Positions 7,822-13,681 of a DNA stretch of 64,000 nt are shown here, piece after piece (the first letter of the stretch is position 1; the number at the start of each line of letters is the position of its first letter). The notes beneath the pieces were generated by a model. It was not told the DNA's origin. It worked only from the letters and a program-made list of their open reading frames with translations, and did not search any database. This DNA is from Mariprofundus sp. NF. GTDB lineage: Bacteria; Pseudomonadota; Zetaproteobacteria; Mariprofundales; Mariprofundaceae. Position numbers and translations under genes: made by a program. The stretch is taken from NCBI RefSeq assembly GCF_013387455.1, contig NZ_VWNC01000006.1, forward strand, positions 1 through 64,000, written 5' to 3'.

Positions 7822-8255
7822 CCAGCTTCAGTGAATCGTGGCCCATCCGCGTCTATTATGAGGACACCGACCATGGTGGTGTTGTCTATTATGCCAACTA
7901 CCTCAAATATATGGAGCGTGCACGCAGTGAATTCCTGCGCTCTGCAGGCCTTGAACTTGATCTGATCGAAGCAGAGTTCGGCGTGATGTTTGCCGTGCGT
8001 CAGGCCAATGTCAGCTATCATGCCCCTGCCCGTTTCAATGAGTTGTTAAATGTTGAGAGCGCACTGATTGAGATGCGTGGTGCCCGCATCGCCTTTAAGC
8101 AGCATATCTATCGCCAGTCTGATGGCCTTCTGCTCACCGAAGGTGATATCCAGCTCGCCTGTATCAGCCGTGATGGTAGTGTTAGCCGCATTCCCAAAAT
8201 TGTAATTGAACGATTGAAAAGCCATTTAAACAGACCAGAGGAGATCTCTTCATGA
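7818..8255 (+). CDS. ybgC: Acyl-CoA thioesterase YbgC (Tol-Pal associated)
   Basis: A 145-residue single hotdog-fold thioesterase. [17 protein letters not shown] (residues 11-27) is the family signature, with the catalytic Asp in EDTD. YbgC hydrolyses acyl-CoA and is the classical first gene of tol-pal operons. GTG start overlaps the ruvB stop, and its TGA overlaps the tolQ ATG. Confidence 0.93.
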
Positions 8256-8941
8256 ATCAGGACCTATCGATTCTAACCCTTATCCTGAATGCCGGTTTTG
8301 TCGTGCAGGGGGTACTTATCCTGCTGATACTGCTGTCGCTTGTCTCATGGGCGATTATCTTTAATAAGTGGCGCCTCTACAGCAGAACGCGCCGTCAGGC
8401 AGAGTCCTTCTCCAAAACCTTCTGGAGCGGTACCGATATGGACACCGTACTGGCTGGCATTCCGCAGCAGTATCCCAACTCATCACTGCCCAATATCTTT
8501 CAGGCCGGTTACCGTGAGTTCATGCGTACCCGTCGCGATGCCAAGCAGAGTGAAGCGGGCAAAATTATTGCCGCCGGTGGTATGGACGGTATCCGGCGCG
8601 CCCTTGATGCCGCCTTCTCCAGAGAGATGGAACGCCTATCCCGCAACCTCGCCTTTCTCGCCACGGTAGGTTCTACCTCCCCATTCATCGGCCTGTTCGG
8701 CACCGTATGGGGCATCGTTAATGCATTCCAGAGCATCGCCCTTACCCAGAACACCTCATTGACCGCTGTTGCACCGGGCATTGCAGAAGCACTGGTGGCA
8801 ACCGCCTTCGGTCTGATTGCAGCGATTCCAGCTGTTGTCGCCTACAACAAGTTCACCGCTGATCTTAAGCGGCTGGCCTCGAACATGGAGCAGTTCAACT
8901 CCGAGTTCCTGAATATCATCTCCCGCCACATGAAAGGATAA
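8252..8941 (+). CDS. tolQ: Tol-Pal system proton channel TolQ
   Basis: A 229-residue inner-membrane protein of the MotA/TolQ/ExbB family. One membrane helix lies near residues 15-38 (VLILLILLSLVSWAII) and two more at about 135-195, including the conserved FIGLFGTVWGI and ATAFGLIAAIPAVVAYN. With TolR it uses the proton gradient to drive TolA. A ribosome site GAGGAGA precedes the ATG. Confidence 0.96.
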   Translation: MNQDLSILTLILNAGFVVQGVLILLILLSLVSWAIIFNKWRLYSRTRRQAESFSKTFWSGTDMDTVLAGIPQQYPNSSLPNIFQAGYREFMRTRRDAKQSEAGKIIAAGGMDGIRRALDAAFSREMERLSRNLAFLATVGSTSPFIGLFGTVWGIVNAFQSIALTQNTSLTAVAPGIAEALVATAFGLIAAIPAVVAYNKFTADLKRLASNMEQFNSEFLNIISRHMKG

Positions 8942-8952
8942 GGTAGCTAACC

Positions 8953-9375
8953 ATGTGGGCCGGACAGAGTAAATGGAGTAAAGAGAACGAGCCGATGGGT
9001 GAGATCAATGTCACACCACTGGTGGATGTGATGCTGGTGCTATTGATTATCTTTATGGTCACGGCTCCCCTGCTCACCCAGGGTGTAAATGTTGACCTGC
9101 CGGATGCTGAAGCGCCTGCCATGCAACAGAATATTGAACCGCTGGTTGTGACCATTCGCGCCAATGGTGATATTTTTATGCAGAAGCAGAAGCAGCCGAT
9201 CAGCATTAAACAGCTGGCCCCGCGTATCCAGGCGATGCGCCAGCAGAAACCGGGATTGCCCGTTTTCATCCGTGGCGATGCAAAAACACCCTATGGTCGT
9301 GTCGCTGAAGTGATGAGTCTTCTCGAAACAGCAGGCATCAGGAAAGTTGGTCTTGTCACTGAGCCGCGCCGTTAG
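8953..9375 (+). CDS. tolR: Tol-Pal system protein TolR
   Basis: A 140-residue ExbD/TolR-family protein with one membrane helix at about residues 22-43. It carries the channel aspartate in INVTPLVDVMLVLLIIF and a periplasmic C-terminal domain. It couples TolQ proton flow to TolA. The tolA start lies inside its last 30 bases, so translation is probably coupled. Confidence 0.95.
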   Translation: MWAGQSKWSKENEPMGEINVTPLVDVMLVLLIIFMVTAPLLTQGVNVDLPDAEAPAMQQNIEPLVVTIRANGDIFMQKQKQPISIKQLAPRIQAMRQQKPGLPVFIRGDAKTPYGRVAEVMSLLETAGIRKVGLVTEPRR

Positions 9376-10150
9376 ACGAGTCCCGGCCGAGGATCATTCA
9401 GCAGATCTGACCAAACTTGATCTGCTCTATGCGTTCCTGCTGCACGCTCTCATCCTGATTGTCGTGGTCACGCTCTCCTTCTGGCAGACCCAGAAAAAGG
9501 AGCAGCCGCTGCAACGCATTGAAGTGATGATGATCTCTGCCAAGCAGCTCTCAGCGATTGAACAGCAGTCGCGACGCAAGGTGAAGCCTGTAAAAAAGCA
9601 GGAGGCCAAGCCAAAGGCTGTTGAGAAGCCAAAACCCAAAATAAAACCAAAACTTGAACCTGTACTGAAGCTGGAAGAGAAGCCGAAACCCAAGGCAAAA
9701 ACAGAACCTAAAGTGGTGGCAAAACCGAAACCCAAAGCTGTGGCAAAAAAGGTAGAGGATGATTTCGATCCTTTCGCCCCTATCGGCTCTTCATCAGATC
9801 GCAGCAGCTCAACCAACAAAGCCTCCACGTCACGCCCCGATATCGCCAATATCGCTGGCCAGCAGCTCTCCAAGAATGAGATCGAGCGTTATGTCGCGCT
9901 GATGCAGGCGGCGGTTCAGGAGCAGTGGAAGGTGCCTGCCAGTAGCGACAGACTCACAGATCCTCTGGTTGAGATGGTGCTTGCCCCCAGTGGCGCAGTC
10001 GTTTCCGTGAAAGTCATTGAGAGTTCGGGTAACGACATGATGGATGCATCACTGATCCGAGCGATTCAGGCTGCTGCACCATTCCAGCTGCCCAAACAGC
10101 AGTTCGAGTATTTCCGTAACAACCGACTCCGTTTCCGTCCACTTAAGTAG
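9347..10150 (+). CDS. tolA: Tol-Pal system protein TolA
   Basis: A 267-residue envelope-spanning protein: one membrane helix (LLYAFLLHALILIVVVTLSF, about residues 27-46), a Lys/Pro/Ala-rich periplasmic stalk (about 75-135) and a C-terminal TonB-like domain (about 170-267) of the TolA/TonB_C type. The start is uncertain: TTG at 9347 or TTG at 9353, which is better spaced from AGGA. The stalk is shorter and richer in KPK repeats than the long helical stalk of enterobacterial TolA. tolB does not follow; it lies at the other end of the window. Confidence 0.9.
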   Translation: MVLSLSRAVRRVPAEDHSADLTKLDLLYAFLLHALILIVVVTLSFWQTQKKEQPLQRIEVMMISAKQLSAIEQQSRRKVKPVKKQEAKPKAVEKPKPKIKPKLEPVLKLEEKPKPKAKTEPKVVAKPKPKAVAKKVEDDFDPFAPIGSSSDRSSSTNKASTSRPDIANIAGQQLSKNEIERYVALMQAAVQEQWKVPASSDRLTDPLVEMVLAPSGAVVSVKVIESSGNDMMDASLIRAIQAAAPFQLPKQQFEYFRNNRLRFRPLK

Positions 10151-10225: not shown

Positions 10226-10257
10226 AAAAAAAACCGCCCGATTGGGCGGCTTTTTGT
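10226..10257. terminator. Bidirectional terminator between tolA and the SH3b gene
   Basis: CCGCCC (10234-10239) and GGGCGG (10244-10249) form a 6-bp GC stem with loop GATT. A long A run precedes it and five T follow, so it can stop transcription from both sides. Confidence 0.85.
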
Positions 10258-10275: not shown

Positions 10276-10830
10276 TCAGAAAACTGAGCTATGTGCCCAA
10301 GCAGTTTTTCCGCTATCGAGCTTCACCTGATACCACCCCTTCTGCTCACCCGTTTTGGTGACGTAATCGCCCTTTTTCAGACGTGTGACGATGCTGCCTT
10401 TAGCCGTCGGCTGCTTACGAATATTAGCGAGTTGCACGCCAACCTGCAGTCGAGGAGAAAATACCGATCTGTGTACCCAGGCTGTGGTCTCACTATCCGT
10501 CTGTCTGATATGGAACCAACCATCTTTCTCTGCAAGCTTATAAACGGTTTCACCCATTTTAACGCGTGAGATCACCTTGCCACTGTTATCCGGAGTATCG
10601 CGTACATTGCCATAGTGGGCTGTTACCGTGATTTGTTCAGCACTGCTCTGATCCGATGCTGGCCACAGCCCCCATACTAGAACCAGTGAGCCAATCACTC
10701 CCAGGGCCAGCATCTGCTTTACAGACACGCGTTTCGCTTCAGTGATGCCATTGGCCTGTTTAATGCCGTAAGTGTCGAACTCTTCATCCAGATCCATCAC
10801 ATTTTCAACTTTACTGTCTGGTCTATTCAT
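10276..10830 (-). CDS. Membrane-anchored tandem SH3b protein (paralogue 1)
   Basis: A 184-residue protein with no recognised name. The cytoplasmic N-terminus (1-40) carries EFDTYGIKQANGI, a membrane helix spans about 41-57, and the periplasmic part is two bacterial SH3 domains (about 67-122 and 125-184) with the usual NVRDTPDNSGKVI and NIRKQPTAKGSIV openings and GWF/GWYQV ends. Bacterial SH3b domains often bind peptidoglycan peptides. GGGAGGTG precedes the ATG. It is followed by 11019-12230, which shares both the N-terminal motif and an almost identical last domain. A cell-wall or Tol-linked role is an inference from domain and neighbours. Confidence 0.8.
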   Translation of the reverse strand: MNRPDSKVENVMDLDEEFDTYGIKQANGITEAKRVSVKQMLALGVIGSLVLVWGLWPASDQSSAEQITVTAHYGNVRDTPDNSGKVISRVKMGETVYKLAEKDGWFHIRQTDSETTAWVHRSVFSPRLQVGVQLANIRKQPTAKGSIVTRLKKGDYVTKTGEQKGWYQVKLDSGKTAWAHSSVF

Positions 10831-10845
10831 ATGTCTGCACCTCCC

Positions 10846-10857
10846 GTCCCGCAGGAC
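10846..10857 (-). promoter_or_regulatory. Leader dyad shared by two SH3b genes, copy 1
   Basis: The 12-base sequence GTCCTGCGGGAC (minus strand; arms GTCC/GGAC) lies about 16 bases before the SH3b start, next to the ribosome site. The same 12 bases occur before the second SH3b gene at 12242-12253. It could be an operator, an RNA hairpin or a relic of duplication. Confidence 0.35.
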
Positions 10858-10968
10858 GATCTACTTATCAGTCGATAGTGCAGGCAGTGGTGAAATGAAA
10901 CTGTGATCCACACCATATGATGAGAAGATATTTATATACTTAGTGCCCCCCCCCGATCACCTGACCAA

Positions 10969-11000
10969 AAAAAACCGCCCAAATCGGACGGCTTTTTATA
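10969..11000 (-). terminator. Terminator of SH3b paralogue 2
   Basis: On the minus strand CCGTCC and GGGCGG pair (one G-U) around a five-base loop and are followed by eight T. The layout closely matches the terminator at 10226-10257. Confidence 0.75.
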
Positions 11001-11018
11001 ATTACAATATAGACTGAA

Positions 11019-12230
11019 TTAAAAGATCGAGCGGTGTGCCCAGGCTGTTTTACCGCTATCAAGTTTCACCTGATACCAACCCTTCTGCTCACCCGTTTTG
11101 GTGACGTAATCACCCTTTTTCAAACGAGTCACGATTTTACCTTTGCCAGTTGGTTGCGTACGAATATTACCAACATCCACACCCACCTTCAGACGTGGCG
11201 CAAACAGGGATTTATGTACCCATGCTGTTTTCTCATCGTCCAACCTGACCTGGAACCAGCCGTCTTTCTCATCCAGCTTATAAACTTCTTCACCCTTTTT
11301 AAGGCGTGAAACCACTTTGCCGCTGTTATCAGGAGCGCTACGCACGTTACCGAAATGAGCTGTTACCTTGATTTTTTCACCGGCAAACATCGGCTCAACA
11401 CTGGTCATCACTGTGTTGATGATGCTGTTCACAACCGTTTCAGGCTCTTTAGCAGCAACCTGCTTCTCTACTTTGGTTTTCTCGATCGGTTTAGCTACAG
11501 GATCTGCAGTGCTGATCTTTGTGTCAGCAACCGCTTTTGGTGGCGTTGCTTCTGTAACAGCCAACTCAGGCTTGCTCTCTTGAGGCATAACCTCTGTTGT
11601 AGTCACAACAATCGATGCATCTTCAACAGCTTTGAGTGCAGCCATCTCTTCGGCTTTCACAGCAGCAGTTTTATCAGTGACAACAGGTGCTACCTTTTCA
11701 GTGACTACAGGCTTCACGCTCTCAACCTTTGCCAGATCAACCGCATCATTAGCAACGTCATGATCCGCTGTTGGCCAGAACACCCACATCAGCGCCACTG
11801 CAATGGTGGCACCAATCAGACTCTGAATCACAGTCTCGCGAGGTGTGCGTTTACCCTCTCCTATGCCATTGGCTTGAGTGATACCGTAAGTACCAAACTC
11901 TTTTTCCAGGTTCATCACATCATCTTTGTTAAGTTCGAGATGTTCTGTTTCTGTCGGGGCTGTTGCGGCAAGGGCGGCTTCGACCGCCTCATCTTCGGCA
12001 GCTTCAGCTGCCGATGCATTCTCTCTCTCGATTTCGAGTATATAACCGTCAAAACGCTGCTGCAGGTTGGCCATAAACTGGTTCACCTCTGTTTGCAACT
12101 GACTCACCTCTGCAATTTTGTCGACGTCTGCGAAGAGATCCATCTCGCTGTTCACGATGGCATGCAGCTGCTCTCGCAGGTCTGCGCCCTGATGCTCTAT
12201 TTCACTACCTGATCTGCTCATATGATCCAT
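11019..12230 (-). CDS. Membrane-anchored tandem SH3b protein (paralogue 2)
   Basis: A 403-residue protein with no recognised name. Residues 1-105 are cytoplasmic, acidic and probably coiled-coil. EFGTYGITQANGI (111-123) repeats the motif of paralogue 1. A membrane helix spans about 134-152, a Val/Ala/Lys-rich periplasmic linker about 155-280, and two SH3b domains about 285-343 and 345-403. The last 40 residues differ from paralogue 1 at only a few positions (GWYQVKLDSGKTAWAH is identical). The start may be ATG 12230 or 12221. It looks like a longer sibling of its neighbour, probably an envelope protein. Confidence 0.8.
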   Translation of the reverse strand: MDHMSRSGSEIEHQGADLREQLHAIVNSEMDLFADVDKIAEVSQLQTEVNQFMANLQQRFDGYILEIERENASAAEAAEDEAVEAALAATAPTETEHLELNKDDVMNLEKEFGTYGITQANGIGEGKRTPRETVIQSLIGATIAVALMWVFWPTADHDVANDAVDLAKVESVKPVVTEKVAPVVTDKTAAVKAEEMAALKAVEDASIVVTTTEVMPQESKPELAVTEATPPKAVADTKISTADPVAKPIEKTKVEKQVAAKEPETVVNSIINTVMTSVEPMFAGEKIKVTAHFGNVRSAPDNSGKVVSRLKKGEEVYKLDEKDGWFQVRLDDEKTAWVHKSLFAPRLKVGVDVGNIRTQPTGKGKIVTRLKKGDYVTKTGEQKGWYQVKLDSGKTAWAHRSIF

Positions 12231-12241
12231 CTCATCCCATT

Positions 12242-12253
12242 GTCCCGCAGGAC
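12242..12253 (-). promoter_or_regulatory. Leader dyad shared by two SH3b genes, copy 2
   Basis: Same 12 bases as at 10846-10857 (GTCCTGCGGGAC on the minus strand), about 11 bases before the start of paralogue 2. Paralogue 3 has no copy. Confidence 0.35.
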
Positions 12254-12361
12254 TGCTTTATTTTCGGGAACACTATGGATGTGAGCAGATAGAAAATGTG
12301 ATCTACGCCATACTTGCGTAGAAAAGTTGTTATTTATTAAAAACTTCCGAACGGGTTCAAC

Positions 12362-12520
12362 CCGGACTATTCATAAATCGCTGTGATGATCACGCAGGGT
12401 CTTTGGTCGCAGCGTATTTCCTTGGAAGGAGTGCGTAGCCATGCTTACGGATGACTGACAAGGGCTCCGTTGCGGGCAAAGGAACAAGCGAGGGCGCGAC
12501 AGCATTTGTGAATAGTCCGG
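12362..12520. repeat. MITE-like element with 22-bp terminal inverted repeats
   Basis: The gap between SH3b paralogues 2 and 3 is filled by a 159-bp block bounded by near-perfect inverted repeats. The left end begins CCGGACTATTCATAAAT and continues CGCTGT; the reverse complement of the right end begins CCGGACTATTCACAAAT and continues GCTGT. Inner segments also pair partly (GTCGC/GCGAC, TTTCCTTG/CAAAGGAA). It has no ORF. This is the plan of a non-autonomous miniature transposable element. No clear target duplication was found. Confidence 0.65.
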
Positions 12521-12525
12521 ATTAG

Positions 12526-13560
12526 TCAGAATATTGATTGATGAGCCCACGCTTCAACACCGTTATCCAGGCGTACCTGATACCACTCTCCTTCAATATT
12601 AATACGTGTCACAGCAGTTCCCTGCTTCAACTTATAGAGAATCTGGCTTTTCGGATGCGGGTCCCTGCGAATATTGCCTACATTTACAGTCACCACCAAT
12701 AGTGTCGTTGCCGCAGATGCTGTAGTGACTACAGGTTTTTTAACCTCTGTCAGAACAGAGTGGTGAGCCCAGCCGCTCTGATCACCACTAAGGCGAATCT
12801 GGAACCAGTCACCCTGCTTGGCCACAACCAACACAGGCGTGTGACGTGGCAGCTTGGCCACAATTTTTGTGCCGGCTTGCGGGAGGGCACGCACATTGCC
12901 AAAACTGACCCCGATTTTCATTGTTTTATCTGAAACAGCAGGCATCTGCAGCTCGGTCTCTGCCGCAACTGTTTCGACAGCAATAGCTTTTTCTTCAATT
13001 ACCTTTTCAGCTGCCGGTTCAACAACAACATCCGCTATCACTGCGACTTCAGGTTCTGGTTCAACTACCACGGCTTCTGGCTTCACATTCATTACGGGAG
13101 GAGTCGGTTCCGCAACTACCGGCTCATGTTTGACGGCATACTGATTGACAGGACCTGATGGCCATACGAACCAGACAACAGCTACAACAAGTAACGCAGT
13201 TGTCGCCAATGCTCCTGAAATTAATTTGCCATAAGAGCCCCTGCCTGTAGCGGCATGGTCGGAACGTTGTGTTGATTCACCTTCAAAAGCAGCCATCTCT
13301 TCATCTGCAAACGGATCAAGATGAGACAATTCACTATCAACATCTTCCCCCGAACCAGCCTCATACTGTTGATCTATATCCTCAACAAAGTGATCGAGGT
13401 GATCCTGAACGGCCGCTTCTCCAGCCCCATCCGCGTCCAGAAGAAGCGACTCTTCCTGCTCCATGAATACATCAAGTTGCTGCTGGAATGTTCCGGTTTC
13501 ATTGTCTTTTTCAATATTACTTTTTTTACTGTCAGCAGTAGAATCACTCTTGTCGTTCAT
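12526..13560 (-). CDS. Membrane-anchored tandem SH3b protein (paralogue 3)
   Basis: A 344-residue relative of the two previous genes. The start at 13560 is chosen because GAGGTG directly precedes this ATG; a longer frame opens at 13623 without a ribosome site. It has an acidic cytoplasmic N-terminus (about 1-110), a membrane helix (about 113-133, LISGALATTALLVVAVVWFV), a Val/Glu/Pro-rich linker and two SH3b domains (about 215-270 and 285-344) with VSFGNVRALPQAG and VNVGNIRRDPHPKS openings. It lacks the QANGI motif and is the most divergent of the three. Function unknown. Confidence 0.78.
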   Translation of the reverse strand: MNDKSDSTADSKKSNIEKDNETGTFQQQLDVFMEQEESLLLDADGAGEAAVQDHLDHFVEDIDQQYEAGSGEDVDSELSHLDPFADEEMAAFEGESTQRSDHAATGRGSYGKLISGALATTALLVVAVVWFVWPSGPVNQYAVKHEPVVAEPTPPVMNVKPEAVVVEPEPEVAVIADVVVEPAAEKVIEEKAIAVETVAAETELQMPAVSDKTMKIGVSFGNVRALPQAGTKIVAKLPRHTPVLVVAKQGDWFQIRLSGDQSGWAHHSVLTEVKKPVVTTASAATTLLVVTVNVGNIRRDPHPKSQILYKLKQGTAVTRINIEGEWYQVRLDNGVEAWAHQSIF

Positions 13561-13681
13561 ATCACCTCTTGCACAGGAGAAACATCTCCAGCTCGAATTC
13601 AAATTGAACCTGACAGGCCCCATTCCTCTCCCGTGACTATAACCTCTTTTTCGGCTTCAGCCAATTGATGTAGAAAAGGGT

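Follow-up and report, generated by a model that had tools for sequence, protein, structure and literature searches.

Single-pass proteins of the inner membrane that grip the cell wall help to organise division and growth. An SH3b domain and one membrane anchor also occur together in the SH3_and_anchor (YgiM-type) proteins of TIGR04211, where an exported N-terminal SH3b domain is followed by a coiled coil and a C-terminal transmembrane segment. Among the bitopic SPOR proteins of E. coli (DamX, DedD and FtsN), DedD carries its SPOR domain on an unstructured linker and DamX has a cytoplasmic domain (PMC7642682). MapZ of Streptococcus has a cytoplasmic domain, one transmembrane segment and a C-terminal peptidoglycan-binding domain (PMC4931243). 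A literature search for Mariprofundus and SH3 domains returned only Sfz6 (PMC8250860), a different protein from those described here.

Three leftward open reading frames, A, B and C, lie on the minus strand of the window (the whole stretch of DNA analysed, 64,000 nucleotides from Mariprofundus sp. NF). They have the common architecture and the lengths (184, 403 and 344 residues) that the initial annotation gave them: an acidic N-terminus, one hydrophobic segment and two SH3b domains each, with a juxtamembrane motif, TYGI-x-QANGI, that A and B do share (Table 1). SH3_3 scores of 90.2, 96.3 and 69.0 bits for A, B and C, against a Pfam gathering score of 27, place them in the SH3b superfamily (SH3_3/SH3_4). 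The net charge of the N-terminus is -5 in A, -19 in B and -24 in C. In each protein a single strongly hydrophobic segment terminates in WxxWP and stands before the SH3b domains, as judged by Pfam and hydropathy, and we infer that all three are single-pass inner-membrane proteins with a cytoplasmic N-terminus. There is no long linker between the transmembrane helix and the SH3b pair of A. We place the start of C at 13560 and not at 13623; a ribosome-binding site is found there, and the orthologue in the genome of Mariprofundus sp. KV (KV below) begins with an identical MNxKxDS.

Table 1. Positions, in the window, of the SH3b genes, their parts and neighbouring elements.
Feature	Coordinates	Strand	Basis or remark
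tolQ-tolR-tolA, convergent neighbour of A	8252..10150	+	TIGRFAM/Pfam profile matches
Intrinsic terminator in the gap where A and tolA converge	10228..10255		both strands show it
Gene A (184 aa), with a short acidic N-terminus that contains TYGIKQANGI, a TM helix ending LWP at about residues 36-57, and two SH3b domains	10276..10830	-	Pfam SH3_3 E 9.7e-26, two stretches; KV orthologue
Tandem SH3b domains of A	10279..10635	-	Pfam; selection
CRP-like element TATGGTGTGGATCACA upstream of A	10902..10917	-	
Gene B, 403 aa: cytoplasmic helix, juxtamembrane TYGITQANGI, TM, linker, two SH3b domains	11019..12230	-	Pfam SH3_3 E 1.2e-27; 6 further Mariprofundus genomes have an orthologue
Tandem SH3b domains of B, residues 283-403	11022..11384	-	Pfam; AlphaFold2; Foldseek to solved SH3b domains
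Periplasmic linker of B, low-confidence (disordered), fast evolving	11385..11771	-	29% identity, omega 0.42; AlphaFold2
Transmembrane helix of B ending VFWP	11772..11840	-	hydropathy maximum; AlphaFold2 helix 131-151; invariant W
Juxtamembrane motif of B, residues 107-123, NLEKEFGTYGITQANGI	11862..11912	-	kept in all B orthologues; degenerate in paralogue E
Predicted long cytoplasmic helix of B, residues 7-90, LxxQL/LQxxVxxF repeats	11961..12212	-	AlphaFold2; alignment A1; selection
CRP-like element TATGGCGTAGATCACA upstream of B	12297..12312	-	
Gene C, 344 aa: LQxQLDxF helix motifs, TM ending VWP, linker, two SH3b domains	12526..13560	-	SH3_3 E 3.9e-19

The claim that no named system has this layout was borne out: no whole-length Pfam or NCBIfam model reached its cutoff for A, B or C, and the only matches were to SH3b-type domain models. 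An AlphaFold2 model of B, built from a six-row alignment, shows the long N-terminal helix (pLDDT mostly 64-85 across the block), the transmembrane helix, a low-confidence stretch at residues 152-281 and then two SH3b folds; the model is confident only locally (pTM 0.24), and the relative placement of its domains carries no claim. The Foldseek matches of the SH3b pair of B are mostly to wall-acting proteins, including the NlpC/P60 endopeptidases 3npf and 4r0k, phage endolysins and the teichoic-acid-binding domain of SlpA, and comparison at the level of sequence likewise links the domains to solved SH3b domains. Linkers in the window proteins span at most about 130 residues, with almost none in A.

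With B as query, we found its orthologues together with paralogues. The family has four main groups: A, B and C beside tolA/PHP, and E, with one SH3b domain, near gatCAB and purF. Further members lie at nhaA/CDF (genomes G002 and G009), at der (G013) and at other places. In an alignment of the N-terminal and transmembrane parts of family members (A1), a single column is invariant, the W of WxxWP, and the P is nearly so. LQxxLDxF repeats of the cytoplasmic helix occur in most members of A1 and are absent from A and from the E protein of G011. The initial annotation had called for a profile search of this region. Across the class, the A1 profile found members in 16 of the 23 Mariprofundus genomes, weakly in two of these, and in none of the 55 others; the count within the genus is partly by construction, many matched sequences being rows of A1, which does not affect the absence outside it. 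A, B, C and paralogue E of the window genome match at 2e-9 to 2e-43, and all four are rows of the profile. In a sample of 348 genomes of the phylum, the only match outside the genus was in G215 (E 7e-4). We do not consider it credible and rejected it as a member; it is an unrelated transmembrane protein with a helix end of WVFWP and no visible SH3b domain, so WxxWP alone is not diagnostic. Within the limits of the genomes searched, the family appears to be specific to Mariprofundus. Judged by sequence, it is an undescribed family, and the mechanism proposed for it below is of an ordinary kind.

Paralogue E of the window genome (C8:67295-68170; locus L047 7272-8207) encodes 311 amino acids, and its orthologues in several genomes of the genus have long repeat-rich C-terminal tails. 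Some members of the family (L054 3206-4135 and L051 6548-8437) have histidine-rich stretches right before the transmembrane helix, and a gene for a CDF metal transporter adjoins family genes in G020, G002 and G009; together these features could point to a possible link with metals. Elsewhere in the window genome, beside the pheST/thrS region (C2, about 15-18 kb), two related lipoprotein-like genes of 380 and 387 amino acids stand in tandem (L048 6110-7252 and 7977-9140), each with one SH3b domain near its end.

Absent from the initial annotation were the cytoplasmic helix motif common to B and C, the WxxWP end of the membrane helix and the origin of A as a shortened duplicate of B. A is found only in the window genome and in KV, and over the SH3b pair it shares 76% identity with B. 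The duplicate either lost the cytoplasmic helix and linker or was made without them. C and B also stand side by side in G019, G016 and G020, and this pair is thus likely to be the older state. B alone occupies this place in G011 and G007. In G001, one family protein of 629 residues lies at the same PHP side (PHP-SDR-gltB genes), with tolA on another contig.

The selection pattern differs sharply between parts of these proteins. Omega was estimated by the Nei-Gojobori method between the window and KV genes, and single values are rough because synonymous divergence is high in several segments. Residues 1-70 of B have an omega of 0.05, against 0.07 in each of its SH3b domains and 0.42 in its linker. 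The SH3b domains of A give 0.03-0.06, and its N-terminus and transmembrane segment about 0.3; C gives 0.15 in its SH3b domains and 0.2-0.38 in most of the remainder. The cytoplasmic helix of B and all of the SH3b domains are under purifying selection and the linker of B drifts, a large contrast. The low values in its SH3b domains indicate that A is a maintained gene, mainly through that part. A and B of the same genome share 93-95% of their last 40 residues, which lie in the second SH3b domain, and this suggests that the two proteins may bind the same ligand. Gene conversion was rejected as the cause of this near-identity, since synonymous divergence there is about 1.1.

A and B are apparently transcribed as separate units and not as an operon, because a terminator-like GC stem and T run (about 10970-11000, read by eye) lies between them and each has its own upstream element. 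In an Rfam scan, the tRNA alone reached its gathering score. The upstream regions of A and B align on TATGGYRTRGATCACA, about 60-70 nt ahead of the start codon. A genome-wide search allowing 0-1 mismatch gave four matches, upstream of A, B and E (C8:67174) and one inside leuS. The element is kept in all seven B orthologues, both A genes and most E genes. C of the window has no such element; C in G020 and G016 has TGTGA-N6-TCAC(A/G) at a matching distance. The right half, TCACA, which agrees with the E. coli CRP consensus, is intact in A, B and E of the window genome, and the left half is degenerate there and intact in C of G020 and G016. The genome encodes three CRP/FNR-type proteins, one of them, at C2:297.7 kb, with STSRETISR in its recognition helix, that is, with the CRP-type residues R-E-xxx-R. 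Plain TGTGA-N6-TCACA sites also occur scattered in the genus. We think that each of A, B and the distant paralogue E probably forms a transcript of its own under this common element, and we hypothesise that a CRP-type protein would control them through it.

Two smaller features lie between the genes. A short hairpin, GTCCTGCGGGAC, occurs in the 5' leaders of A (10846-10857) and B (12242-12253), right before the ribosome-binding site; in the A leader of KV the stem is kept and the loop changed. The gap between B and C holds a MITE-like element of about 159 bp (12362-12520) with terminal inverted repeats (CCGGACTATTCAyAAAT...), and a second copy, 78% identical, is present at C2:344101-344246. 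The element is probably absent from KV, where the gap is only about 106 bp.

We propose, with a probability of roughly 0.6, that A, B and C are lineage-specific bitopic proteins of the inner membrane that serve as tethers or scaffolds to peptidoglycan. The acidic cytoplasmic N-terminus would form a long helix with LQxxLDxF repeats that probably self-associates. In A, B and E there is also a juxtamembrane YxIxxxN motif, and this N-terminal region could provide a docking surface for a cytoplasmic partner. One transmembrane helix ending in WxxWP would cross the inner membrane, a disordered linker whose length varies would span the periplasm, and the tandem SH3b domains would grip their putative ligand, peptidoglycan. 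The outcome would be a cytoplasmic partner fixed to the wall, or a wall-synthesis partner put in place, as with DamX/DedD/FtsN or MapZ. The pattern seen in B, with constrained helix and SH3b domains and a free linker, is the one expected of a tether that binds at both ends and is flexible in between.

The domain family and the fold matches make peptidoglycan the natural ligand to propose for the SH3b pair. SH3b ligands vary, however, and include peptide cross-bridges, teichoic acids and proteins, which counts against this proposal. No SH3b-peptidoglycan tether from a Gram-negative turned up in the literature searched. In A and one E member, which have no cytoplasmic helix, at most the juxtamembrane motif could recruit a partner. 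The tether model also leaves unexplained the need for several paralogues. The window genome has ten SPOR matches, so the family fills no obvious gap, and we rejected the idea that it replaces missing SPOR proteins. More tentatively, and with a good deal of doubt, we speculate that the paralogues form a genus-specific trans-envelope scaffold set under common CRP-type regulation, a wall-anchored organiser built on SH3b and not on SPOR domains, in which a single cytoplasmic assembly of helices would be held to the wall at varying sites or distances by paralogues that serve, through their different linkers, as molecular spacers. A further speculation is that the family might shed light on how the stalked, curved cells of Mariprofundus maintain their asymmetry.

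The initial annotation proposed envelope sensing or scaffolding. The membrane-anchored, scaffold-like envelope layout upholds the second; the first is not supported. As sensors of envelope stress or wall state, the proteins would bind wall fragments or altered peptidoglycan through SH3b, and a change in the cytoplasmic helix would be relayed to a soluble partner. The transmembrane layout, the conserved helix and juxtamembrane motif, the differences between paralogues in their cytoplasmic parts and the probably regulated promoters would all suit such a role. However, Pfam and NCBIfam scans of A, B and C gave no kinase, HTH, cyclase or other output domain, and among the neighbours read there is no conserved adjacent regulator gene. 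We consider sensing unlikely.

It is still less probable that the SH3b domains bind an exported polysaccharide or the iron-stalk matrix instead of peptidoglycan, and so help to anchor surface structures of Mariprofundus. The SH3-CotH protein Sfz6 does belong to the stalk cluster (PMC8250860), and an open reading frame of 1532 amino acids with SH3b matches in the window genome (C1:513152-515272; L049 13057-17652) fits its description and is probably sfz6. Nevertheless, with inner-membrane tethering and the short linkers of the window proteins, the SH3b domains should stay in the periplasm, and the likeness to Sfz6 is at the level of SH3b only. Moreover, the published sfz cluster is found throughout the Zetaproteobacteria in stalk formers (PMC8250860), but the SH3b family in a single genus only. 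Downstream of the 1532-residue frame are an ADP/ATP-carrier-like gene and a mannose-1-phosphate guanylyltransferase-like gene.

The position beside TolA, from which the initial annotation argued a role, does not carry that argument, and the link to TolA is weak. The neighbours themselves match Tol-type profiles (tolQ, TIGR02796, 271 bits against a cutoff of 221; tolR, TIGR02801, 141.8 against 127.3; the TolA-like gene, TonB_2 E = 2e-11, and tolA_full 56.3 bits, slightly below its cutoff of 59.45). An operon with tolQRA was rejected, because A and tolA are convergent with a terminator between them. Whether the cluster stays beside tolA in relatives has a divided answer: family genes are near tolA in 5 of about 15 genomes with a readable region after it, and a fixed association was rejected on this count. 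That the proteins are Tol-Pal accessories working with TolQRA-Pal at constriction is very improbable: they are the nearest tolA neighbours in the window and KV, and in three further genomes no more than one gene separates them from tolA, and Tol-Pal acts at the envelope, but, besides the convergent arrangement, about 10 other genomes of the genus in which the region after tolA is readable have no family genes there, a CDF gene intervenes in G020 and a small membrane-protein gene in G011 and G007, and the remaining members are at unrelated loci such as gatCAB, nhaA/CDF and der. A TolB propeller match above cutoff lies at C6:63972-65168, at the far window end, some 54 kb away from tolQRA, and tolB thus does not form a single cluster with those genes here.

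How does a peptidoglycan tether of this kind compare with described systems? The SH3b domains of NlpC/P60 enzymes (3npf, 4r0k) and phage endolysins have the same fold but sit on peptidoglycan hydrolases, and A, B and C have no catalytic domain. Sfz6 shares the SH3b domain and the phylogenetic group with them; it is a long CotH protein with no N-terminal or transmembrane part in common. TIGR04211 proteins share an SH3b domain and one membrane anchor; A, B and C score 35.8-41.9 bits against a 65-bit cutoff and are not members, and their domain order is reversed, with the anchor first.

The closest parallels are in layout. With DamX, DedD and FtsN, the family has in common a cytoplasmic N-terminus, one transmembrane segment, a disordered periplasmic linker (as predicted, and almost lacking in A), a C-terminal domain predicted here to bind the wall, and the existence of several paralogues. 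In contrast, the wall end here is a tandem SH3b and theirs is SPOR; a Pfam scan found no SPOR domain in A, B or C, and we found no sequence relation. MapZ likewise combines a cytoplasmic domain, a single transmembrane segment, a linker outside the membrane and a C-terminal peptidoglycan-binding domain (putative in our proteins), but it is Gram-positive, with another wall-binding fold and a bi-modular extracellular part. By analogy, our best reading is that the SH3b family may work like the SPOR bitopic proteins and MapZ while being a member of neither. In these Gram-negative iron oxidisers SH3b appears to serve in such a layout, which has expanded within a single genus. Confirmation would offer an entry to the cell-envelope biology of Mariprofundus and would place an SH3b-based class alongside the SPOR, OmpA-like and LysM wall anchors already known.
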